64,000 nt of DNA from Brevinematales bacterium (lineage in GTDB: Bacteria > Spirochaetota > Brevinematia > Brevinematales > GWF1-51-8), in assembly GCA_020059465.1 (NCBI GenBank), contig JAGVBZ010000030.1, positions 124,001-188,000 of the forward strand, written 5' to 3'. The first letter of the stretch is position 1. The number at the start of each line of letters is the position of its first letter. Positions 4,392 to 47,356 of this stretch are shown in pieces. The notes beneath the pieces were generated by a model. It saw only the letters and a program-made list of their open reading frames with translations. It did no database searches and had not been told where the DNA came from. Position numbers and translations under genes: made by a program.

Positions 4392-4949
4392 ATGATAAAA
4401 ATTTCAGCGATATTTATCAGCATGCTCCTGCTTACATCTACCGGATGCAATCAGGGAAACAAGGAGGGGAAGGTGAAGAAAGAGATCGAAAAGATTACCG
4501 TCAAAAGCCCGGCCTTTCAGAGCGGTGGAAAAATACCGTCAAAATTCACCTGCGACGGGGAAAATATTTCTCCCGCGCTTCAATGGGGGCCTGTCCCCGA
4601 GGGAACTGTAACATTCGCGCTGATCGCCGACGACCCCGACGCGCCTTCCGGCACATGGGTGCATTGGGTGATATATAATATCCCGCCGGGCGTCACCAAT
4701 CTTCCCGAGAAAACCACCCTGCCGTTTGAAAAGGAGACCGGCGCTATAAGCGGAAAGAGCAGCTTCGGAAAGGGCGGTTACGGCGGGCCTTGTCCGCCGG
4801 GCGGAACACACCGTTATTTCTTTAAAATCTACGCGCTCGACACCAATCTCACTCTCCCCGCTTTATCGTCCAAACAGGACTTGTTGAAGGCAATGGAAGG
4901 CCACATTATCGGGCAGGGAGAGTTGATGGGCACATACCAAAGGAATTAG
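4392..4949 (+). CDS. YbhB/YbcL-family Raf kinase inhibitor-like lipoprotein (PEBP)
   Basis: The 185-residue product has a lipoprotein signal (hydrophobic core then TSTGC, acylated Cys about 19). The mature part is a phosphatidylethanolamine-binding-protein fold. FTCDGENISPALQWG, DDPDAPSGTWVHWVIYNIP and GPCPPGGTHRYFFKIYALD are the hallmark segments of bacterial YbhB/YbcL, including the Asp/His ligand-pocket residues. E. coli homologues are cytoplasmic or periplasmic; the lipobox here suggests membrane attachment. The biological role of the bacterial family is not settled. The gene has its own promoter and ends exactly where the convergent DUF2892 gene ends. Confidence 0.9.
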   Translation: MIKISAIFISMLLLTSTGCNQGNKEGKVKKEIEKITVKSPAFQSGGKIPSKFTCDGENISPALQWGPVPEGTVTFALIADDPDAPSGTWVHWVIYNIPPGVTNLPEKTTLPFEKETGAISGKSSFGKGGYGGPCPPGGTHRYFFKIYALDTNLTLPALSSKQDLLKAMEGHIIGQGELMGTYQRN

Positions 4950-5156
4950 CTATTTAGCCTCTTTTTTTGTGCTGATACCGAACGGCATATAAAGAGGACA
5001 GACGCCTATCACTGCCGTCACAATAAAGATTCCGCCGACTGCGAGGATCACAATCCCCCATATGCCTGTCACTACTCCGGTAAAGTACAGCACTCCTGCC
5101 GCCGCGGCAACTATGAGACGTACGATACGGTCGATCAGACCCATGTTCTGTTTCAT
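4950..5156 (-). CDS. DUF2892 family small inner-membrane protein
   Basis: The 68-residue product starts at an ATG preceded by GGAGG at five bases; a frame-extended start four codons earlier lacks this. GLIDRIVRLIVAAAAGVLYF followed by a second hydrophobic segment and GVCPLYMPFGI is the typical two-helix DUF2892 (YgaP transmembrane-like) pattern, including the conserved CPLY motif. Such domains are often linked to rhodanese or sulfur genes, but none is adjacent. Function unknown. Confidence 0.85.
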   Translation of the reverse strand: MKQNMGLIDRIVRLIVAAAAGVLYFTGVVTGIWGIVILAVGGIFIVTAVIGVCPLYMPFGISTKKEAK

Positions 5157-5233
5157 ATCATCCTCCATAATGTTATATTATAATGTAATAATATTATAGA
5201 GATTAGTCAAACCCCGGCAAATTCTTCCATTTA

Positions 5234-5262
5234 TTGCGCCGGTAAAATATTTTCGTTATAAT
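5234..5262 (+). promoter_or_regulatory. Candidate promoter for the PilZ gene
   Basis: TTGCGC (5234-5239), 17-base spacer, TATAAT (5257-5262), about 47 bases before the GTG at 5309. The -35 is weak and the -10 perfect. The surrounding intergenic region (5157-5308) holds nothing else I recognise. Confidence 0.45.
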
Positions 5263-5308
5263 ATGCGATTGCCGATATATAATGTAATCTGCGTTGATAG
5301 GGGGCTGT

Positions 5309-6043
5309 GTGAACATATTGGTATACACCCAATCCAAGTTCATACTCGAACGTTTCGTCGATACGTTTTTTCCGGCGGGGATCTCGGTTTTTCACTGCGA
5401 CAGTTCCATTATGATCGATAGAAAAATCACCTCCCACAATATCGATATTCTTTTCATCAACCTCAACGGCGAGAATGTCCGGGACGCTACCGATATCTTA
5501 AGGGCAGTACGTGCCCATTCCGACCCGGTTGTTCTCGGAGTAATCGTTACTTTATACATCGAAAACGTGCCCAAAGAAACGGTGAGCCGGGTGCTCCATT
5601 TCGGCGCAGACGGTATAGTGCAGAACAGTATGACCTCGGAACAACTGATTCATTATTCCCTGATGGTATATGAACGTACTCACAAGGAAACGCCGTCGCT
5701 GAAACTCCAGAATGTTCGCCTCAATCCCAACCTTCCCCCGGAATACATCGTAGTGAAGCTGGTTTCGCCTCTCGACGACCAATCCATCCTCGGCGTGCTG
5801 ATCGATCTCAGTCTCGGGGGTATGGCTCTCAAACTGGTGGGAACGTATGCGAAAAATGCGATTGAAAAAGGAATGGCTTTCACCAATATCGAGTTTATTT
5901 TATTGGGGCACGAAATGCGGATCGACGGGATAGTCGCGGCGTATAAACAGGATATATGCGCGATCATATTCACGCAAATGACACAGTCCGACAGACACGA
6001 AATCTGCCAATTCATTTTCATGAAACTGTCTAATTTGATATAA
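5309..6043 (+). CDS. Receiver-like N-terminal domain plus PilZ domain protein
   Basis: I take the GTG at 5309 (preceded by GGGGG) as start, giving 244 residues. Residues 1-115 show the alternating beta/alpha pattern of a CheY-like receiver (ILVYTQSKFI, DILFINLNG, LGVIVTLYIE, GADGIVQN). The acidic pocket is incomplete: the usual paired acidic residues after beta-1 are missing, so it is probably a pseudo-receiver. Residues about 130-240 resemble PilZ, with IDLSLGGMAL matching the D/NxSxxGG half of the cyclic-di-GMP motif; a clear RxxxR half is not evident. Likely a cytoplasmic signalling adaptor. Confidence 0.6.
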   Translation: MNILVYTQSKFILERFVDTFFPAGISVFHCDSSIMIDRKITSHNIDILFINLNGENVRDATDILRAVRAHSDPVVLGVIVTLYIENVPKETVSRVLHFGADGIVQNSMTSEQLIHYSLMVYERTHKETPSLKLQNVRLNPNLPPEYIVVKLVSPLDDQSILGVLIDLSLGGMALKLVGTYAKNAIEKGMAFTNIEFILLGHEMRIDGIVAAYKQDICAIIFTQMTQSDRHEICQFIFMKLSNLI

Positions 6044-15192: not shown

Positions 15193-15389
15193 CTTCCCCT
15201 CCAAAATAATGCTTGACGAAATATTTTTTTGCATTATTATATATAAAAATAAAGGTTACCGCAAACTCCGTAATTTTTATTTTTTTATTTAAAAAATATT
15301 TCAACGTTTTCTTTGTGTTTCATGGAAAACTTTGATATGATATTGAACGGGGTTTTTCTCTTCTCTGAGAAGTGCTTGGGAGAAAGGAA

Positions 15390-15845
15390 ATGATTTTCAA
15401 CTTCAAAGTTTCTGGAACTGAAGACGAGATCGTGCAATTTGAGCGGGAACTACTGGAGATTCTAACACGTATCACCTGCGATCAGGATATGGTCGCTCAT
15501 GAGATTCATTTCTGTATTCACGAGGCTATTCTGAATATTCTTCAGCACTCATATCATTGGAAACGGGATATTCCTATCAACATCAAACTTATTGTGAGCG
15601 GGAGCGATGAAAAGAAAGATAAAATCCTGGAGATCCAAATCAAAGATAACGGGCCTGCGATTAAGCAGCCGTTGGAACCCCCCGAGAAGATCGACCGTTT
15701 CCAGATGCGTAAACGCGGAATCTATATGATCAGCAAGATAATGGACGAGTTTTCAATCAACTACGATGGTAAGAGCGGAAACATCACATATATGAAGAAG
15801 AAGCTTTCGGGCTTCGACGACCAGATATTAAACGTATCCGTATAA
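15390..15845 (+). CDS. RsbW-like anti-sigma regulatory serine kinase (HATPase_c_2)
   Basis: The start is the ATG at 15390 (GGGAGAAAGGA upstream), giving 151 residues. The GHKL fold is visible: the N-box helix FCIHEAILNILQHSY with E and N positions, the G1 box IKDNGPAIKQP (DNG) and the G2-like RGIYMISKIMDEF. Such small kinases phosphorylate a STAS-domain antagonist and sequester a sigma factor or other partner. The STAS gene lies 19 bases downstream, the classical kinase/antagonist pairing. The phosphatase at 9327-10820 could close the cycle. No alternative sigma factor gene is adjacent, so the output may be another protein. Confidence 0.88.
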   Translation: MIFNFKVSGTEDEIVQFERELLEILTRITCDQDMVAHEIHFCIHEAILNILQHSYHWKRDIPINIKLIVSGSDEKKDKILEIQIKDNGPAIKQPLEPPEKIDRFQMRKRGIYMISKIMDEFSINYDGKSGNITYMKKKLSGFDDQILNVSV

Positions 15846-15864
15846 CCATATCCGGAGAACCGCA

Positions 15865-16239
15865 TTGAAAATAAAAATTGCCGTTCTTAGCGAAACTCTT
15901 GTCATTTGTACCGTCTCCGGCGAGTTAAGCATTTTTGACGAAGATTTCGACATCTTCCAGAAAGAAGTAGTTGCCTATATCAAACTGGGAGTTTACCGTT
16001 TTATCGTCGACCTCGACGCCGTCAGCTATATCGATTCGTCCGGTATCGGGGTTATCATCCGTCTCGCTACCAACGCCATGAAAAAAGAGACACAGGTCTG
16101 CGTCATCTGCAATCAGCCGCATGTCAAGCGCGTATTTTCGGTCGCCAACGTCGACCGTATCATGAAGTTCGTGGACAGTGTCGACGAGGGTATCGCGTTC
16201 TTCGAGCGCACGACTGGATTTGTCAATAACGGAAAATAA
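15865..16239 (+). CDS. STAS-domain anti-sigma factor antagonist (RsbV/SpoIIAA-like)
   Basis: The 124-residue product starts at TTG 15865 with GGAGAA upstream. VDLDAVSYIDSSGIGVIIRL is the STAS signature; Ser58 in DSSG is the predicted phosphorylation site. The C-terminal HVKRVFSVANVDRIMKFVD completes the fold. In partner switching, the unphosphorylated form binds the kinase encoded just upstream and frees the kinase's target. The TTG start may lower its yield relative to the kinase. Confidence 0.92.
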   Translation: MKIKIAVLSETLVICTVSGELSIFDEDFDIFQKEVVAYIKLGVYRFIVDLDAVSYIDSSGIGVIIRLATNAMKKETQVCVICNQPHVKRVFSVANVDRIMKFVDSVDEGIAFFERTTGFVNNGK

Positions 16240-16310: not shown

Positions 16311-17525
16311 TTACGCCTGCAGGAAAAACCGTTTATGCAACGCCTGCACCGTTTTCTCGGCGTCCGCCTTACGGATGACGACGGAAATCTTGATTTCGGA
16401 GGTGGAGATCATTTCGAGATTGATGCTGTTCTTGGCAAGTTCGTCAAATACGGCCGCCGCGATTCCGGCATATACCTTCATCCCGACGCCGACCACCGAC
16501 ACGATCGCGATATCCGCGTCGTAGGTCACACTTTCCGCTCCGAGTTCAGTCTGGAGCTTCGCCATCACTTTTTTCGCCTCGTCGAGGTCGGTATTAATCA
16601 CAGTGAACGAAATCTGGCTGTGTCCCTCTTTCCCGACGCTCTGTACGATCATATTCACATTGATATTCGCGTCGGCGAGCTGTTTGAATATTGTGGACGC
16701 GACACCGGGTTTATCGGGAATGCCCGCGATATTGACACGGACTTCGTTGTCTTTCTTAGCGATACCGCTGATTAATACGTCTTCCATATCGGCTGACTCC
16801 TTTACAATTAAAGTGCCGGGGCCTTCCGCGAAGGACGAAACCACCCGGAGAGGAACGTTATATTTCATGGCGAATATGACTGAACGGTCGTGAAGAACCT
16901 TCGATCCCATCGACGCCAGTTCGAGCATTTCATCGTGGGAAATCCTGTCGAGCCGTCTGGCATCGGGAACTATACGCGGGTCGGCGGTATAAACCCCGTC
17001 CACATCGGTATATATATCGCATCGGTCGGCCTTGAGGGCGGCGGCCACAGCCACCGCGGTCGTATCGCTCCCGCCGCGTCCGAGTGTGGTAATATTGTTC
17101 TTCATATCGATGCCCTGAAAACCCGCCACTACTATGATCTTACCGGCGGCGAGAGATTCCCTCATTAATTTGGTGTCTATATCGAGTATTTTTGCCTTCG
17201 AGTATTCGGCGGTGGTGCGGATTCCCACCTGCCATCCGTTGTATGAGATGGCGTCATGCCCCTGATCGATCAGCGCCATCGCGAGAAGCGCGATAGTGAC
17301 CTGTTCGCCGGTAGAGACCATCATATCCATTTCGCGCTTGGAGGGATTGTCCGAAATCTGCCTGCACAGGCCGATCAGTTGGTCGGTCTGCCCGCTCATC
17401 GCGGATACGACCACCACGACCTGATTGCCAGCCAGCTTTTCTTTAATGACGGTACCGGCAACATTTTTTATACGTTCGGGATTGCCTACCGAAGTACCGC
17501 CGAATTTCTGCACAATCAGCGCCAA
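16311..17525 (-). CDS. lysC: Aspartate kinase with two ACT domains
   Basis: The 404-residue product begins at a TTG with AGGAGG six bases upstream, giving MALIVQKFGGTSVG, the aspartokinase signature. The kinase domain covers about 1-235 (GFQG, TTLGRGGSDTTAVA, YTDVDGVYTADPRIV). Two ACT domains follow (about 265-400: VNIAGIPDKPGVASTIFKQLADANIN and IVSVVGVGMKVYAGIAAAVF), which usually bind lysine and/or threonine for feedback inhibition. It catalyses the first step to lysine, threonine and methionine; asd, the next step, is at 30253-31254. Confidence 0.97.
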   Translation of the reverse strand: MALIVQKFGGTSVGNPERIKNVAGTVIKEKLAGNQVVVVVSAMSGQTDQLIGLCRQISDNPSKREMDMMVSTGEQVTIALLAMALIDQGHDAISYNGWQVGIRTTAEYSKAKILDIDTKLMRESLAAGKIIVVAGFQGIDMKNNITTLGRGGSDTTAVAVAAALKADRCDIYTDVDGVYTADPRIVPDARRLDRISHDEMLELASMGSKVLHDRSVIFAMKYNVPLRVVSSFAEGPGTLIVKESADMEDVLISGIAKKDNEVRVNIAGIPDKPGVASTIFKQLADANINVNMIVQSVGKEGHSQISFTVINTDLDEAKKVMAKLQTELGAESVTYDADIAIVSVVGVGMKVYAGIAAAVFDELAKNSINLEMISTSEIKISVVIRKADAEKTVQALHKRFFLQA

Positions 17526-17554: not shown

Positions 17555-17583
17555 ATTATAAAATAAGGCGGCGAAAATGACAA
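17555..17583 (-). promoter_or_regulatory. Sigma-70-type promoter for lysC
   Basis: On the minus strand, TTGTCA (17578-17583), a 17-base spacer and TATAAT (17555-17560) lie 30 bases before the TTG start. The leader is too short for a lysine riboswitch. Confidence 0.8.
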
Positions 17584-17711
17584 GATTTTATACCCGATAC
17601 CATCATCCCGTCCTTCAATAAGACAGAGTGATGGAAAAACATTTTTTCATCATCGCGGGTAAAACGGAAATCTCAACCCATACCGCTTTTACAGGGACGG
17701 GATATGATTAT

Positions 17712-18158
17712 TTACTGCCCTATCGACTGGTACTCATTGAGGGCGAGTATCAACGGTTTTGTCTTGTCCTGATCGGCGGAAAACTTGCGGATCGCGCCGT
17801 CCACAGCCTGCACAAAATCGTCGCTCGACAAGGTAAGTTCGAGAACCTTCTCGCCCATGAATGCAAGTATATTATCCACTTCCTCTTTGCTCAGGTTCGG
17901 GTATTTCTGAGATATTCTGTCGATCCCCGGATCAATCCCTTTCTTCGCGTCGGTCACCGATTTTATCGTATCCAGTATCACATTGATATTCGTCGACGCG
18001 CCGATTACCTTGATCGCGTCGTTCTGGACTTTGCATGTGGACGTAATCAGACCGTCCAGTTCCGCCTTCGCCTTCGTGAAATCGGAACTCTCGGCCGCGC
18101 AGGAGACCACCATGAATATTGCGGCGAATATTGCTGAAAAAAACATTCCTCTTTTCAT
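17712..18158 (-). CDS. Small helical lipoprotein, member of the tandem array (copy 5)
   Basis: The ATG at 18156-18158 follows GGAGGAAAG, giving 148 residues. The signal peptide ends in VVSC (lipobox), so the mature protein starts CAAESS and is predicted membrane-anchored by lipid. The mature part is almost entirely helical and charged, and it carries the array's shared pattern: INVILDTIKS then IDRISQKYPNLSKEEV. The last gene of five consecutive lipoproteins. It differs from the others by an internal Cys (STCKVQ). Function unknown. Confidence 0.78.
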   Translation of the reverse strand: MKRGMFFSAIFAAIFMVVSCAAESSDFTKAKAELDGLITSTCKVQNDAIKVIGASTNINVILDTIKSVTDAKKGIDPGIDRISQKYPNLSKEEVDNILAFMGEKVLELTLSSDDFVQAVDGAIRKFSADQDKTKPLILALNEYQSIGQ

Positions 18159-18193
18159 AGCTTTCTTTCCTCCAATCCTATTATTCCTACAGT

Positions 18194-18634
18194 TCATTCG
18201 TGCGGGATGAGTATCATAAGCGGGTCGAATGCCTTCGTGAGCAGGTCGATAGCCGTATGGTCTCCCGCGTAGCGCGCCAGCAGGCCGCCTACAGTCTCGC
18301 CCAGTTCCTGCGATAAATCGGCAAGCTTATCGTACTTCGTCTGAAGCATCTGCCTCAATAGTTCCGCCTCTTTCGGGGAAACCGGATAAAGGTCGTCGAT
18401 ATCGTTCATCTCGGATAGGAGCGCGTTCGCCTGCACAGCGGCTTTTTCAGCCGCGGCCGCCGCCTGACCCGCGTCCTTCGCCGAGGCGGTCTGCTCGATC
18501 GCGGCGGTAATCACTGCGATCCATTTATCCAGCACCGTATGATATTCCCCGGCGGCTTTTTTTATATCCGTTCCGCAGGAAGCGAGCGCAAGGATTAATC
18601 CCAGCACCGCTGTGTATTTCAAGGCATGTTTCAA
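18194..18634 (-). CDS. Small helical lipoprotein, member of the tandem array (copy 4)
   Basis: The frame opens at a GTG 18641-18643 that overlaps its own GGAG, so the TTG at 18632-18634 (eight bases after GGAG) is the better start, giving 146 residues. LALASC is a clean lipobox. The mature part is helical with an Ala-rich stretch (DAGQAAAAAEKAAVQAN), then IDDLYPVSPKEAELLRQM, matching the shared motif. It ends 35 bases before copy 5. No enzymatic motif. Confidence 0.72.
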   Translation of the reverse strand: MKHALKYTAVLGLILALASCGTDIKKAAGEYHTVLDKWIAVITAAIEQTASAKDAGQAAAAAEKAAVQANALLSEMNDIDDLYPVSPKEAELLRQMLQTKYDKLADLSQELGETVGGLLARYAGDHTAIDLLTKAFDPLMILIPHE

Positions 18635-18673
18635 TGTGAACACTCCGTCGGTATATTTTTATCGGCCAATCAG

Positions 18674-19114
18674 TTACATCTGCAAACTATAGGCGAGGTT
18701 CATCCGCGCCTGATGAATTTTTTCCTTTGCAGCGCTGTCTTTTTCGAACTTAATGAGAATACCGTCGACAGTTTTACCCATCTTTTCGCCGGACTTGGTG
18801 AAATTGTCGAACGTCGTCTGCATCATCTCCATCAGCTTATCGTTCTCGGGAACACTCAGCGTATATTTATTATCGATCAGCTTCAATTCCGCAATCAGCC
18901 CGTTCGCTGTCTCCGACGCCCCGTTCAGAATCGCAACAATCTTATCGCTGTTGGTTTCAGCGTTCAGCTTATCGACAGTCGTGTTCAATAAAGCCGTCAG
19001 CTTATCGATAGCGGGAGCCATTTCCGATTCGACCTTTTTCAGGTCATTTCCGCCGCACGATGCTGTCATGATCATTAAACCTGCTAATAACCCCAGACTG
19101 AAAATTCTTTTCAT
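18674..19114 (-). CDS. Small helical lipoprotein, member of the tandem array (copy 3)
   Basis: The 146-residue product has GAGGAGCG upstream and a lipobox at TASC, followed by GGNDLKKVESEM. The mature helix-rich part contains NSDKIVAILNG and LIAELKLIDNKYTLSVPENDKL, the clearest version of the family motif. Spacing to the neighbouring lipoprotein genes is 30-40 bases. Function unknown; a periplasmic lipid-anchored helical bundle is the likely structure. Confidence 0.78.
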   Translation of the reverse strand: MKRIFSLGLLAGLMIMTASCGGNDLKKVESEMAPAIDKLTALLNTTVDKLNAETNSDKIVAILNGASETANGLIAELKLIDNKYTLSVPENDKLMEMMQTTFDNFTKSGEKMGKTVDGILIKFEKDSAAKEKIHQARMNLAYSLQM

Positions 19115-19152
19115 CTTTCGCGCTCCTCTATGTTTTATATCTGTCCCGGTTC

Positions 19153-19596
19153 CTACATCCGGCTCGCTTCGACAATGACATCTATCGTGGTTTTCAACTG
19201 CTCCATTACGTCGGCGCTATCCGCAAATTTTTCAGCCGCCGTACCGAACGCCTTATTCAGCGTTTCGCTTGCGGCGCCAAGTTCCGCATAGACGTCGCTC
19301 AATCTCCCCTGAAGCTCGTCATCCTGCGCGGCATTCAGGTTATACTTGTCCGATATCTCCTTCAGTTCCCGAGTGAAATTCAGGAACAGTTCGCCGGATT
19401 TTTTTATCAGCATGATTGTATCTTCAGCAGATTGTGAATCGTTCATCTTTGCGGCGATTTCGTTCATCGAACCGACCATATTCTTCATCGACATCCGAGC
19501 TTCGGCCTCGATTTTCTTCATATCCGTACCGCCGCCGCATGAGATGAATAATGCCGTGAAAACTGCGATAAACCCAAACCTCATAAAATTTTTCAT
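19153..19596 (-). CDS. Small helical lipoprotein, member of the tandem array (copy 2)
   Basis: I choose the ATG at 19594-19596 (GGAG eight bases upstream) over a GTG three codons earlier, giving 147 residues. Lipobox LFISC, then GGGTDMKKIEAEARM. The shared motif appears as SAEDTIMLIKKSG then RELKEISDKYNLNAAQDDEL. The rest is Lys/Glu/Ala-rich helix. Same strand and short gaps as the other four lipoproteins. Confidence 0.78.
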   Translation of the reverse strand: MKNFMRFGFIAVFTALFISCGGGTDMKKIEAEARMSMKNMVGSMNEIAAKMNDSQSAEDTIMLIKKSGELFLNFTRELKEISDKYNLNAAQDDELQGRLSDVYAELGAASETLNKAFGTAAEKFADSADVMEQLKTTIDVIVEASRM

Positions 19597-19645
19597 TTTC
19601 AGCACTCCTTAATGATAACCCTTCCCGTCAAGCCATCATATCGTA

Positions 19646-20083
19646 TTACATACTGCCGATTTCCCGAAGGCTGAGAAGCGCGTCCATCAGCTTTTCTACT
19701 TCCTTCGGATTATCCTTGTACTTTTCCAGCACTGTGTTGATATTGCTGTTCAGCGAAACCAGCACCGTACCTACCGTATTGTATTCGGTTTTCAGTGTTT
19801 TTACCAGTTTTTTAGATTCATCGGGGGTAAGGTTGAATTTTTTCTCGATAGCCTTCATTTCGAGTATAATCTGCTTCATTTTCCCGGCGGTTTCCTTGAT
19901 AATCGCGGCGGCCTCGTCCGCGGACTGTACCGATATGATTTGCAGGGAGGCTTTTTCTATCAACGCGGACATCCCCTGTACCGCCGGGCGCATTTCGTTC
20001 GCGGCCTTATTGATGTCGGCTCCGCAGGATACGAAAAGCAGGCCCGCCCCGATCAGACCCGGCAGGAAAAACAGTTTCTTCAT
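19646..20083 (-). CDS. Small helical lipoprotein, member of the tandem array (copy 1)
   Basis: The first lipoprotein gene after coaD (42-base gap), 145 residues, with GGGAG upstream. Lipobox LFVSC then GADINKAANEMRP. The motif reads SADEAAAIIKETAGK then EMKAIEKKFNLTPDESKKL. Mature residues DINKAA/DIKKAA are shared with copy 4, supporting duplication. Function unknown; probably made from the coaD transcript or a nearby promoter. Confidence 0.78.
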   Translation of the reverse strand: MKKLFFLPGLIGAGLLFVSCGADINKAANEMRPAVQGMSALIEKASLQIISVQSADEAAAIIKETAGKMKQIILEMKAIEKKFNLTPDESKKLVKTLKTEYNTVGTVLVSLNSNINTVLEKYKDNPKEVEKLMDALLSLREIGSM

Positions 20084-20125: not shown

Positions 20126-20608
20126 CTATACCGGGTACTTCTCGCGCAGTTTCTTCCATACGTCGGGCGGTACTTTATCGGACACATCCCCGCCGTACTG
20201 CGCGATCTCGCGGATGATGGACGAACTGACGAACAGGTTTTCCTCGCGCGCCATAAAGAACACTGTGTCGACTACCTCGTTCAGGTGGTAGTTAAACGAT
20301 GCGAGTTGGAGTTCGTATTCGAAATCGGACACAGCCCGCAGTCCGCGTACAAGCGCCATCGCCCCGCAATCGCGTACGAAATTGATCAGCAGGTTCGAGA
20401 ACGAGCGTATTTCGATATTCGGGCTGTCCTTGAATATCTGTTTTAACATCTCCTCCCGTTCCGCAGCGGAAAACAACGGGTCTTTCCCGGGGTTGTTCCC
20501 TACCCCGATAATCAGCTTGTCGAAGAAATGGGACGCCCTGATCGCCACATCGATATGGCCGTTGGTGGGAGGGTCGAATGTTCCGGGATATACCCCGATT
20601 TTCCGCAT
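20126..20608 (-). CDS. coaD: Phosphopantetheine adenylyltransferase
   Basis: The 160-residue product starts at the ATG 20606-20608 with AGGAG upstream; a longer in-frame opening is spurious. GVYPGTFDPPTNGHIDV contains the nucleotidyltransferase T/HxGH motif (His18), followed by LIIGVGNNPGKDPLFS and LVRGLRAVSDFEYELQLA, with SSSIIREIA near the C-terminus. It makes dephospho-CoA from phosphopantetheine and ATP. Five lipoprotein genes follow on the same strand. Confidence 0.97.
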   Translation of the reverse strand: MRKIGVYPGTFDPPTNGHIDVAIRASHFFDKLIIGVGNNPGKDPLFSAAEREEMLKQIFKDSPNIEIRSFSNLLINFVRDCGAMALVRGLRAVSDFEYELQLASFNYHLNEVVDTVFFMAREENLFVSSSIIREIAQYGGDVSDKVPPDVWKKLREKYPV

Positions 20609-41443: not shown

Positions 41444-41917
41444 TCATTCGTCTTCCTCGAAGGAACTGAGCGCCTTAACGGCATCGAGCAATAGCTGCTC
41501 GTCCTGCGGAGATAAGGTTTTCCCCTCCCGCCACTTCGTCACAGCATCCTGAAATTCCGTATAAGCCCGCATCATCTCCTCTATCAAAGCCTGGCCTGTT
41601 TCCATAAAGTCATTATCGTCCTCTATCGCATCCTCGTAGGGCTGTGCCGATTTTTTCATAAGCCCCATGATATCCCGGAACTTTTTACCGGTATATAAAA
41701 TAATGTCCGACAGTTTCTGCACTGATTGGGCGCTTTTCACCTCTACGGCAGCGTCGCGCAGGATACCCGTGACCTCGGAGATACCGAAAATAATAAGTAC
41801 CTTTGCCTTGATAATATCGGCCGCGCCGCCTGTACGAGTCCGATCGGAAAAGCTTTGCGGGTATACGGTACTTGTAAAAAAAACCGCCCCTAAAAGTACT
41901 CCGATAAAAATCCTCAT
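41444..41917 (-). CDS. Small exported helical protein (second locus, member a)
   Basis: The 157-residue product has a signal peptide (RIFIGVLLGAVFFTSTVYPQ) without a lipobox. The mature part is helical: SVQKLSDIILYTGKKFRDIMGLMKK is similar to the motif of the lipoprotein array at 17712-20083, and the tail is acidic (SSFEEDE). It overlaps the next gene upstream by an ATGA junction with GGAG. Function unknown; likely periplasmic. Confidence 0.7.
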   Translation of the reverse strand: MRIFIGVLLGAVFFTSTVYPQSFSDRTRTGGAADIIKAKVLIIFGISEVTGILRDAAVEVKSAQSVQKLSDIILYTGKKFRDIMGLMKKSAQPYEDAIEDDNDFMETGQALIEEMMRAYTEFQDAVTKWREGKTLSPQDEQLLLDAVKALSSFEEDE

Positions 41918-42450
41918 TTTTGCATCTCCTGTTCATACTTCGGCCATATCTGAGTGATCTCATGTATTCTCTCGCATACGGTCATAAACGCAACTAAAGC
42001 ACTTTCTATCTCTGCCTGCTCGCCGGAATATTTATCCAGGATAATCATGGCGTTTTCCACAAATTCGTCCGACGCATCGGAAAAAAGTTTTGTATATTCG
42101 CCGATATGGTTTGCAACCATTACTATTTGCTTTTCATTCAGTCCCACGGGAGGGGATTTGAAAACCGCTGTCTTTTCGGCCAGATGAGTGTTTACATATT
42201 CGAACACCCCAGCCGCTTCACCCGCATTTGCGGTATTCGTCAGCTTATAGGTTCCGGCTTTCAGCAGAAACGCACCCTCCAGATAGACAGCAATATACTT
42301 GATTAACAATGCGCTGTTATTCTTCCATGTCCGGATTTTTACGCCGCCTTTTTTCTTATCAATAAGGGGTGCTGACGCATCTTTCCCGGATGAAGAAACC
42401 GGAAAGAGATAAAGAACGATACCGAGTATAACAATGATCAGTTTCCTCAT
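41914..42450 (-). CDS. Small exported helical protein (second locus, member b)
   Basis: The ATG at 42448-42450 (AGGAGGAGCGG upstream) gives 178 residues; a longer frame reads into the metallo-hydrolase gene and is spurious. A signal-like N-terminus (KLIIVILGIVLYLFPVSSS) is followed by a basic stretch and then helices (ANAGEAAGVFEYVNTHLAEK, EYTKLFSDASDEFVENAMIILDKYSG). It fits the general size and composition of the exported helical family, although the motif is weaker here. Coupled to member a. Confidence 0.65.
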   Translation of the reverse strand: MRKLIIVILGIVLYLFPVSSSGKDASAPLIDKKKGGVKIRTWKNNSALLIKYIAVYLEGAFLLKAGTYKLTNTANAGEAAGVFEYVNTHLAEKTAVFKSPPVGLNEKQIVMVANHIGEYTKLFSDASDEFVENAMIILDKYSGEQAEIESALVAFMTVCERIHEITQIWPKYEQEMQK

Positions 42451-42491
42451 TCCGCTCCTCCTGAAAATTTGATAATCCGATGGTTCTACCT

Positions 42492-43259
42492 TTAAATAGA
42501 ATCCAGTGTTTCCCCCGGGCGAATCAGTTTTACCGACGAAGGAAATATTCCGTTCTCCCGGTCCAGCCGTTCCCGGTAATGCGAAAAGGTTCCCCAATGG
42601 ACGGGTACGATCGTTCCAGGATGGAAACGGCGGTCGAACCGCGCGATATCCTTTTTATTCATCGTGATACGTCCGGCAATCCGGGAGAGCAGGCCGTCGC
42701 CCAATACCGCGTTACCCGCGTTGAGGATCGCGAGATCGATCGCTTTTCCCTTCAGGCCCCGGATCATCCCGTTATTTATCAGGGTGTCGCCGGAGACATA
42801 GAGATTAAAAAGCTCCTCGCCGTTCCGGTACTCGACCAGATACCCGTTGCCGTTACCGACCATCCCGCCGAGAATCGTATTGGACGCATGGATCGCGGGA
42901 ATCGCAGTCACCCGGATAATCCCCCGGTGCGGGAGTTCCGTGATATGCGTCTCGCCCCATTTCAGCACTTTTGTCCCCTTTTTTCTCTCTATCGGGACAG
43001 GGCTATAGAGCGGCGTATCACCGATTACAGCCATTCCCCGCATATCGATATGGTCCTCGTGAATATGCGAGATAAGCCAGAAATTCAGCCCCTTAAAATC
43101 GTCCCTCGTATAGACAGGGTCTTCCAGCCTCTCGGATTTGAAAAACCTGTAGTCCTGAACAGTTCCCTTGGCGCATAAGACCGGATCGCACGCGATGCGG
43201 ATATTACCGACATCCAATACCCATGTCGCGCCGCCGATCCATTTCAGCCGATACTCCAT
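42492..43259 (-). CDS. MBL-fold metallo-hydrolase (UlaG-like)
   Basis: The 255-residue product shows GATWVLDVGNIRIACDPVL then the metal motif ISHIHEDHID (HxHxDH), with later ligands in VTAIPAIHASNT, VSGDTLIN and VPVHWGTFSHY. This is the UlaG/RNase-Z-like metallo-beta-lactamase fold that hydrolyses phosphoesters or lactones, but the substrate is unknown. AAAGGGGG precedes the ATG. It lies between two small exported helical genes on the same strand, which may only be chance. Confidence 0.9.
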   Translation of the reverse strand: MEYRLKWIGGATWVLDVGNIRIACDPVLCAKGTVQDYRFFKSERLEDPVYTRDDFKGLNFWLISHIHEDHIDMRGMAVIGDTPLYSPVPIERKKGTKVLKWGETHITELPHRGIIRVTAIPAIHASNTILGGMVGNGNGYLVEYRNGEELFNLYVSGDTLINNGMIRGLKGKAIDLAILNAGNAVLGDGLLSRIAGRITMNKKDIARFDRRFHPGTIVPVHWGTFSHYRERLDRENGIFPSSVKLIRPGETLDSI

Positions 43260-43295: not shown

Positions 43296-43751
43296 TTAAT
43301 AATCCATTCCATTCTCGATAATCTTCTTTAAATCCGCCTTCTGGGCCTCGGATAACCCGTGCACATCCGCCCATTCCTCGATGGAATTTAATAATTCCTG
43401 GTGCGCCTGTACCAATTCGTCCGCGATTTTCTGTCCTTGAATAAAAAATTCCTTATCGTTTAGTAATTCCGGATATTTCTCAAAAATATCCATCGCGGGC
43501 TTCATGCTTTCCTTGTATTTCAACGCCGCTTTCTTCAGGTACTTTGAAACCCCTGTTTTGTCGTCTATTTTCCAAATCCCGTCCTTTGAGGCAATCATCA
43601 GATCCGTCATCAACCGGAGGGTATTGATTATCTTCTCCTGACTACTCTTGGGGTCGTTTTTCGCGGAACGGCTATGCGTCCCGGCGGCGTAAACCGTCCC
43701 CGAAAGAACAATAATGATTCCCGCGATAACAACATGTTTGTAAAATGCCAT
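43296..43751 (-). CDS. Small exported helical protein (second locus, member c)
   Basis: I take the ATG at 43749-43751 (GAGGAGCGG upstream), 151 residues. The N-terminus (YKHVVIAGIIIVLSGTVYAAG) is a cleavable signal peptide with AxA-type end and no lipobox. The mature helices include VSKYLKKAALKYKESMKPAMDIFEKYPELLNDKE and ADELVQAHQELLNSIEEW, similar in layout to the array lipoproteins. Function unknown. Confidence 0.68.
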   Translation of the reverse strand: MAFYKHVVIAGIIIVLSGTVYAAGTHSRSAKNDPKSSQEKIINTLRLMTDLMIASKDGIWKIDDKTGVSKYLKKAALKYKESMKPAMDIFEKYPELLNDKEFFIQGQKIADELVQAHQELLNSIEEWADVHGLSEAQKADLKKIIENGMDY

Positions 43752-43841
43752 CCGCCCGCTCCTCATATATTTCAATCCATCCGGAAAACGTCTCATAAAC
43801 TCAACGCTTCCATTTTCTCACCGTTCTCAAGCAACATATAC

Positions 43842-46796: not shown

Positions 46797-47276
46797 TTAT
46801 TTTATATCCTGATTATACCCCTGCTGCCATTCCTTTAATTTGACAAACGCCTTCTCAATCGATTCGACGCCTTTTTTATCCTTCTTGAATTTTTCCTTCA
46901 GGTCGTCTACCGCCAATTCATAATTATTCCATGCAAATATCATAGTTTCGATTTGTTCTTGAAGCGTCTCCCAAACGTCAATACTTTGCCCGTCGTCTAT
47001 GGTCTTTAGAGTTTTTAATTCCGCAATAATCAGTTTCCTAAGAAGCGCGTCGGTAGCGTAAATTACTTTGACAGCAGCCTCCGCGCTGTCCACCGATTCC
47101 AGAGATATAACATAATCGTTATAAACTTTCGTGCAGTTGACAACAAGCGTTTGCGTTTTTTCTGTCAGGATTTTATTATTCCCCGAACGCATTTTCTTCG
47201 ATACATATTCCTGAGCGATACCGGACGATACCGATACTAGAATAACAGACAAAATAAAAAACACGCGCATAGTCAT
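46797..47276 (-). CDS. Small exported helical protein (second locus, member d)
   Basis: The ATG at 47274-47276 (TTGGAG upstream) gives 159 residues with a signal peptide (RVFFILSVILVSVSSGIAQ). The mature helices carry SVDSAEAAVKVIYATDALLRKLIIAELKTLKTIDD, which resembles SADEAAAIIKETAGKMKQIILEMKAIEKK of array lipoprotein copy 1. Later part: KEKFKKDKKGVESIEKAFVKLKEW. Basic and acidic residues alternate. Non-lipidated member of the family. Function unknown. Confidence 0.72.
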   Translation of the reverse strand: MTMRVFFILSVILVSVSSGIAQEYVSKKMRSGNNKILTEKTQTLVVNCTKVYNDYVISLESVDSAEAAVKVIYATDALLRKLIIAELKTLKTIDDGQSIDVWETLQEQIETMIFAWNNYELAVDDLKEKFKKDKKGVESIEKAFVKLKEWQQGYNQDIK

Positions 47277-47356
47277 GGCTTTCTCCAAGAATATATTATC
47301 ATTATCATAATTCACTCCCCTGAAAACGCAAATAATCGAGGCTTGTGCGGTCATTT

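Follow-up and report, generated by a model that had tools for sequence, protein, structure and literature searches.

Five consecutive genes on the minus strand, located between coaD and lysC at positions 17712-20083 of the window (the whole stretch of 64,000 nucleotides of Brevinematales bacterium DNA analysed here), appear to encode small, helical lipoproteins. Their presence side by side raises the questions whether they are true paralogues or just sequences of like composition, whether they belong to a larger family, and which role such proteins may have in the cell.

The array and its flanks

An earlier note on this DNA described the array as five same-strand genes, 30-50 bases apart, each coding for 145-148 residues, and the coordinates of the open reading frames (Table 1) agree: going from LP1 to LP5 the gaps are 49, 38, 39 and 35 nt, i.e. 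35-49 nt. Each of the five genes is preceded by an AGGAG-like ribosome-binding site. The TTG start of LP4 is backed by its ribosome-binding site and by the orthologues; a GTG at 18643 is possible, and would shorten the preceding gap to 30 nt. The mature part measures about 125 residues in each protein.

Table 1. Features of the array, of its flanks and of an outlying relative, in window coordinates
Feature	Position	Strand	Remarks
coaD (phosphopantetheine adenylyltransferase)	20126..20608	(-)	PF01467, E 4e-28; probably opens the transcription unit
LP1	19646..20083	(-)	predicted lipoprotein, 145 aa; first array gene, 42 nt past coaD
LP2	19153..19596	(-)	predicted lipoprotein, 147 aa
LP3	18674..19114	(-)	predicted lipoprotein, 146 aa
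LP4	18194..18634	(-)	predicted lipoprotein, 146 aa from TTG; 149 aa if GTG at 18643
LP5	17712..18158	(-)	predicted lipoprotein, 148 aa; most divergent copy
Imperfect inverted repeat	17605..17703	(-)	18 nt arms, 78%, 63 nt apart; directly past LP5
Sigma-70-like promoter	17555..17583	(-)	TTGTCA-17-TATAAT, 11/12; ahead of lysC; consensus match only
lysC (aspartokinase)	16311..17525	(-)	borders the array downstream in each of the four congeners
Outlying superfamily relative	46797..47354	(-)	Sec-exported, non-lipidated; mature-only profile E 1.2e-7

All five signal peptides end in Ser-Cys, and this pair is invariant in the 15 of 15 array proteins of the genus. The signal peptide and the cysteine are thus present throughout, but to call the lipobox clean, as the earlier note did, was an overstatement, since it is canonical in LP4 only (LASC), the residue at position -3 being F in LP1 and LP2, T in LP3 and V in LP5; the word fits a relaxed, spirochaetal standard, as non-canonical residues at -3 are tolerated in spirochaetes. 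With a signal peptide, a lipobox and its cysteine, the features by which a bacterial lipoprotein is recognised, the cysteine is presumably lipidated.

The short spacing, 42 nt between coaD and LP1 in the window and 19 nt in the congener GWF1_49_6, suggests that coaD and LP1-5 are co-transcribed as one unit. A consensus search found no sigma-70-like promoter between coaD and LP1. The match ahead of lysC might set this gene apart from array transcription, which can be taken as suggestive only because promoter-like matches occur across the region in the number expected by chance. The inverted repeat past LP5 may possibly mark the end of the unit. Further along, on the opposite strand (15372-16239, +), a gene with a HATPase_c_2 domain (anti-sigma-kinase-like) is followed by a STAS-domain gene, and both are located next to the array locus in the congeners too.

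Homology and age of the five copies

Global alignments gave z = 9 to 12.5 in three of the four pairs tested; LP1 against LP5, with z = 2.3, is unconvincing as a pair, and a profile is therefore needed. Mature-only profiles were built by leaving out one paralogue at a time and using the other four ortholog groups. Every left-out copy was recovered with 38-92 bits, corresponding to E-values from 1e-10 to 1e-27 when scaled to 3000 sequences, while the best score reached by the control, 3000 shuffles per group, was 14.2 bits. In addition, a profile of 15 mature sequences was run against 1249 ORFs, taken from loci that had been fetched outside the genus; it detected 56 of them at E<1e-4, and the same profile, reversed, detected none below 0.06 in the same set; as the loci overlap, some ORFs are counted repeatedly in both figures, and the loci had been pre-selected with a related profile, so that the informative point is the contrast between forward and reversed search. 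These tests rule out a chance likeness of helical sequences and confirm that the five genes are homologous, with a relationship extending past helix composition, as originally proposed.

The motifs put forward in support of the same idea hold in part. The S-x-[DE] helix start is found in LP1-3 and is missing from LP4 (DAGQAA) and LP5 (NINVIL). The segment [ED]LKxIxxK[YF]xL is well recognisable in LP1-3, while LP4 (EMNDIDDLYPV) and LP5 (GIDRISQKYPNL) have degenerate forms of it, and the acidic-rich stretch, claimed to be part of the pattern, is nothing distinctive. Two patterns of a wider family are present in the array: [KR]-[YF]-x-[LV], with which helix 2 ends and which is degenerate in LP4 (LYPV), and [KR]-[YF]-x(2)-[DN], placed between helix 3 and helix 4 and variable in some copies. 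The proposed motif is the signature of this spirochaete family, and is not specific to the array.

The genes are old tandem paralogues, as had been suspected. Identity between paralogues amounts to 16-30% over the mature parts, against 54-91% for orthologues in the two nearest congeners (54-79% to the window copies, 84-91% between the congeners). The order in Spirochaetes bacterium GWF1_49_6 (contig MIBD01000003, L058/L038) is coaD-LP1-2-3-4-5-lysC. Congener G002 has coaD-LP0-LP1-5-lysC, where LP0 is an extra lipoprotein gene that shares 4 nt with the end of coaD. What represents the genus are metagenome-assembled genomes, drafts in many contigs, and G003, a more distant congener, has the locus divided between two contig ends, coaD-LP0-lipoprotein-TerB-like on C37 and lipoprotein-LP5-lysC on C9, which we infer to join as one locus. 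Size and order are kept, with orthologues at the same positions in two congeners plus the split locus in a third, and the array is ancestral to the genus. The TerB-like protein (PF05099, slightly under cut-off; L045 12-455) is encoded inside the G003 array, near the contig end.

LP1 orthologues were found in congeners G001 and G002, and an LP5 orthologue also in G003, with 47% identity. In the phylogenetic tree LP1, LP2, LP4 and LP5 form orthologue groups with starred support, the G003 gene falling within LP5, and the LP0 genes of G002 and G003 are united at 99/99; the LP3 orthologues do not form a well-supported closed group and the deep branches do not resolve. Every copy is under purifying selection, with dN/dS of 0.10-0.30 wherever computable and dN about 3-5 times that of coaD; pseudogene status is ruled out by these values. 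No long or recombination-type repeats were found between array copies, hence there is no sign of recent exchange, and this, along with the 16-30% identity, argues against recent duplication or gene conversion.

The wider family and its predicted fold

The array is only the visible part of a large, unnamed spirochaete family, of which its copies are divergent members. The profile search of spirochaete genomes, suggested along with the original observation, was performed with a 23-row alignment against 393 Spirochaetota genomes: 76 match at E<=1e-4, and in about 55 the best match reaches E<=1e-7, 10 of the latter having contributed rows to the query. Weak matches covering mostly the signal peptide (several families; f14, f22, f36) were left out of the counts, and copy numbers are lower bounds, the best 10 candidates per genome having been scored. 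The distribution is patchy, by loss or transfer: the family profile matched none of the other genomes from this order and class (G004-G017), yet it matched many Spirochaetota genomes that are further removed.

The family has KYP[ED]L as its signature, together with a loop containing D-P-x-V. Members outside the genus display it more clearly: helix 1 starts with Y-x-D, [KR]-[KR]-Y-P-[ED]-[LF] comes after helix 2, P-x-E-L is located at helix 3, and K-Y-x-x-D-P-x-V follows between this helix and helix 4. Besides the cysteine, the most conserved positions in 54 aligned lipoproteins are K82, Y83, an inserted P and D125 (LP1 numbering). No residue beyond the start and the cysteine is invariant in the 23-row alignment, nor is any catalytic-type residue conserved in the 54 members, where no His, Cys or acidic cluster points to catalysis. 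Lipidated, membrane-anchored, soluble and fused forms exist, and tandem arrangement is common: pairs or triples are found in several other genomes, with lipidated and Sec-exported soluble versions adjacent (L093-L095), and further tandem groups at L092 and L096-L098. In three cases (L092 2163-2909, L107 1877-2560, L108 1939-2655) the four-helix domain is located behind another exported domain, for which Pfam gave no identification.

Comparison to known families supports the early remark that no named family has this signature. Neither the array proteins nor distant members match a Pfam or NCBIfam model at cut-off, and their PHROGs matches lack consistency; what was obtained from the three collections are scattered, sub-threshold matches only. 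The best NCBIfam match of the distant member L101, the Leptospira lipoprotein family TIGR04454 (Lepto_4Cys; E 2e-4), is below cut-off (21.9 vs 35 bits) and spans residues 1-57, signal peptide included; nothing here corresponds to the four cysteines of its name. No published description of the family turned up in a literature search. A plasmid or phage origin was also considered and rejected, since one canonical member gave no tblastn match in plasmid and phage collections and PHROGs yielded nothing consistent. As no model exists in Pfam, NCBIfam or PHROGs, the family, often multicopy in the genomes containing it, has likely been entered as 'hypothetical' in one genome after another; a profile, together with the signature and predicted fold, allows searches for it.

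Structures were predicted for single proteins, another of the checks suggested. The AlphaFold model of LP1, for which ten array sequences from two species were used as input, is a four-helix bundle (helices 24-50, 55-82, 87-121 and 126-143) with a pLDDT of 87, rising to about 96 over most of the mature part. For LP5, modelled from its single sequence, one of five models was good (83.8, the rest near 40), with the same helix order as LP1, so that a four-helix bundle of equal topology is predicted for both. Helix 1 is predicted to start about 4 residues past the cysteine. Foldseek found no match at E<=0.001 to solved structures for either model; the top matches were t-SNARE helical domains and designed bundles, and those shared by both models, such as yeast Sso2, are generic and expected of helical bundles.

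Possible roles and further relatives in the genome

The reading we favour, with moderate confidence, is that of a tandem expansion, within an unnamed family, of exported four-helix bundles which bind or scaffold envelope components at the periplasmic face of the outer membrane and are steadily co-expressed with coaD. The signal peptide would be cleaved and the cysteine then lipidated; LolA, which is present in the genome, would deliver the proteins to the outer membrane, where the bundle would lie on the periplasmic side and near the membrane, as the linker from the cysteine to helix 1 measures only about 4 residues. LP1-5 would be made steadily and jointly with the product of coaD, a housekeeping gene, and would serve in binding or scaffolding of other envelope components, not in catalysis, the paralogues being specialised for different partners. 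We infer, in short, steadily made, non-enzymatic and probably periplasmic proteins. If this is correct, the array would exemplify how tandem lipoproteins diversify in spirochaetes that are known from environmental genomes, outside the usual setting of host interaction.

Spirochaetes are able to place lipoproteins on the cell surface, and the array proteins could be binding lipoproteins displayed there, diversified for external ligands, particles or neighbouring cells. The gross organisation, tandem paralogous helical lipoproteins in a spirochaete, is that of the PF54 array of Borrelia (CspA/BBA64-BBA73), and the proteins evolve faster than their neighbours; a dN above that of the neighbours would fit surface exposure also. 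PF54 is however carried by plasmid lp54, species-variable and host-interacting (PMC5193363), whereas the present array is chromosomal, located amid housekeeping genes in conserved order between coaD and lysC, under purifying selection and devoid of repeat exchange, codes for shorter proteins (about 125 aa mature), and belongs to a genus known from metagenome-assembled genomes. The PF54 model is not among the Pfam matches of the array proteins, and the 50 best Foldseek matches for each of the two models include neither solved PF54 folds nor any other Borrelia outer surface protein. The best PDB sequence match of the 23-row profile is indeed a 'Putative surface protein' (6roc/6qo1, E 0.003), which we take to be a Borrelia PF54-type protein, but its best stretch has an i-Evalue of 0.04 and the match is absent with a 10-row profile. 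The predicted tether of about 4 residues, though compatible with surface display, speaks against a long-stalked surface antigen. On the whole, surface display appears rather unlikely. Very doubtful is a function as abundant, partly redundant structural filler or envelope spacer, similar to Braun-type Lpp/OprI. The proteins are small, charged, predicted to be lipidated, multicopy and without a conserved active site, but Lpp/OprI are single-helix coiled coils, whereas a folded four-helix monomer, not one long coiled-coil helix, is predicted here; also, paralogues kept apart for long at 16-30% identity point to distinct roles instead of redundancy.

A sixth paralogue, present in this genome and in the congeners, is part of a conserved block composed of clpC, a membrane-anchored paralogue of 190 aa, a lipoprotein paralogue and a secretin (L042 2671-5272 on G000:C6; also L043, L044 and L046), with a large unknown gene past the secretin; in G003 the middle gene of the block is broken by unknown bases. 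The secretin matches PF00263 (E 4e-41) and has an N0 domain. For this paralogue, the clearest case, and for the family in general, a role as secretin pilotins or secretin-associated factors may be considered, given that T2SS pilotins (OutS/PulS/GspS) are small four-helix lipoproteins as well, as described for OutS (PMC3276575). It is quite improbable. In the published description the pilotin fold differs from ordinary four-helix bundles (PMC3276575), such as the one predicted here, no Pfam pilotin model is matched, and the secretin ends about 28 residues past its secretin domain, which leaves scant room for a long pilotin-binding tail. By eye, no T2SS or T4P genes were noticed near this apparently orphan secretin, and no secretin was noticed beside the five array copies or beside members in other genomes examined. 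A pilotin-like role is conceivable for the sixth copy only, because of its secretin neighbour. Little probability is likewise given to a periplasm-spanning scaffold or relay, possibly secretin-linked, in which interlocking four-helix modules encoded by side-by-side genes would be anchored to the outer membrane by lipid, to the inner membrane by a TM segment, or free in the periplasm.

Further likely relatives of the array proteins are found in the window itself. A second, scattered set of four minus-strand genes (41444-41917, 41914-42597, 43296-43796 and 46797-47354) encodes Sec-exported, non-lipidated, helical proteins, which, judging by profile matches, are likely outlying relatives. In addition to the value in Table 1, E is 7e-4 for the 41444 gene, 0.006 for 41914-42597 and 0.24 for 43296-43796, the latter two being weak alone. 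The likely start of the 46797-47354 gene is internal (MRVFFI). Some of these proteins carry an H-[TS]-R-[TS]-like motif right behind the signal peptide. The syntenic stretch of G003 (L054) contains six such genes, two of them adjacent and similar (4450-4902, 4950-5405). A CTP synthase 50% identical to that of the window was also observed on JAQYCV010000037 (L059), a contig labelled 'Clostridiales bacterium'.
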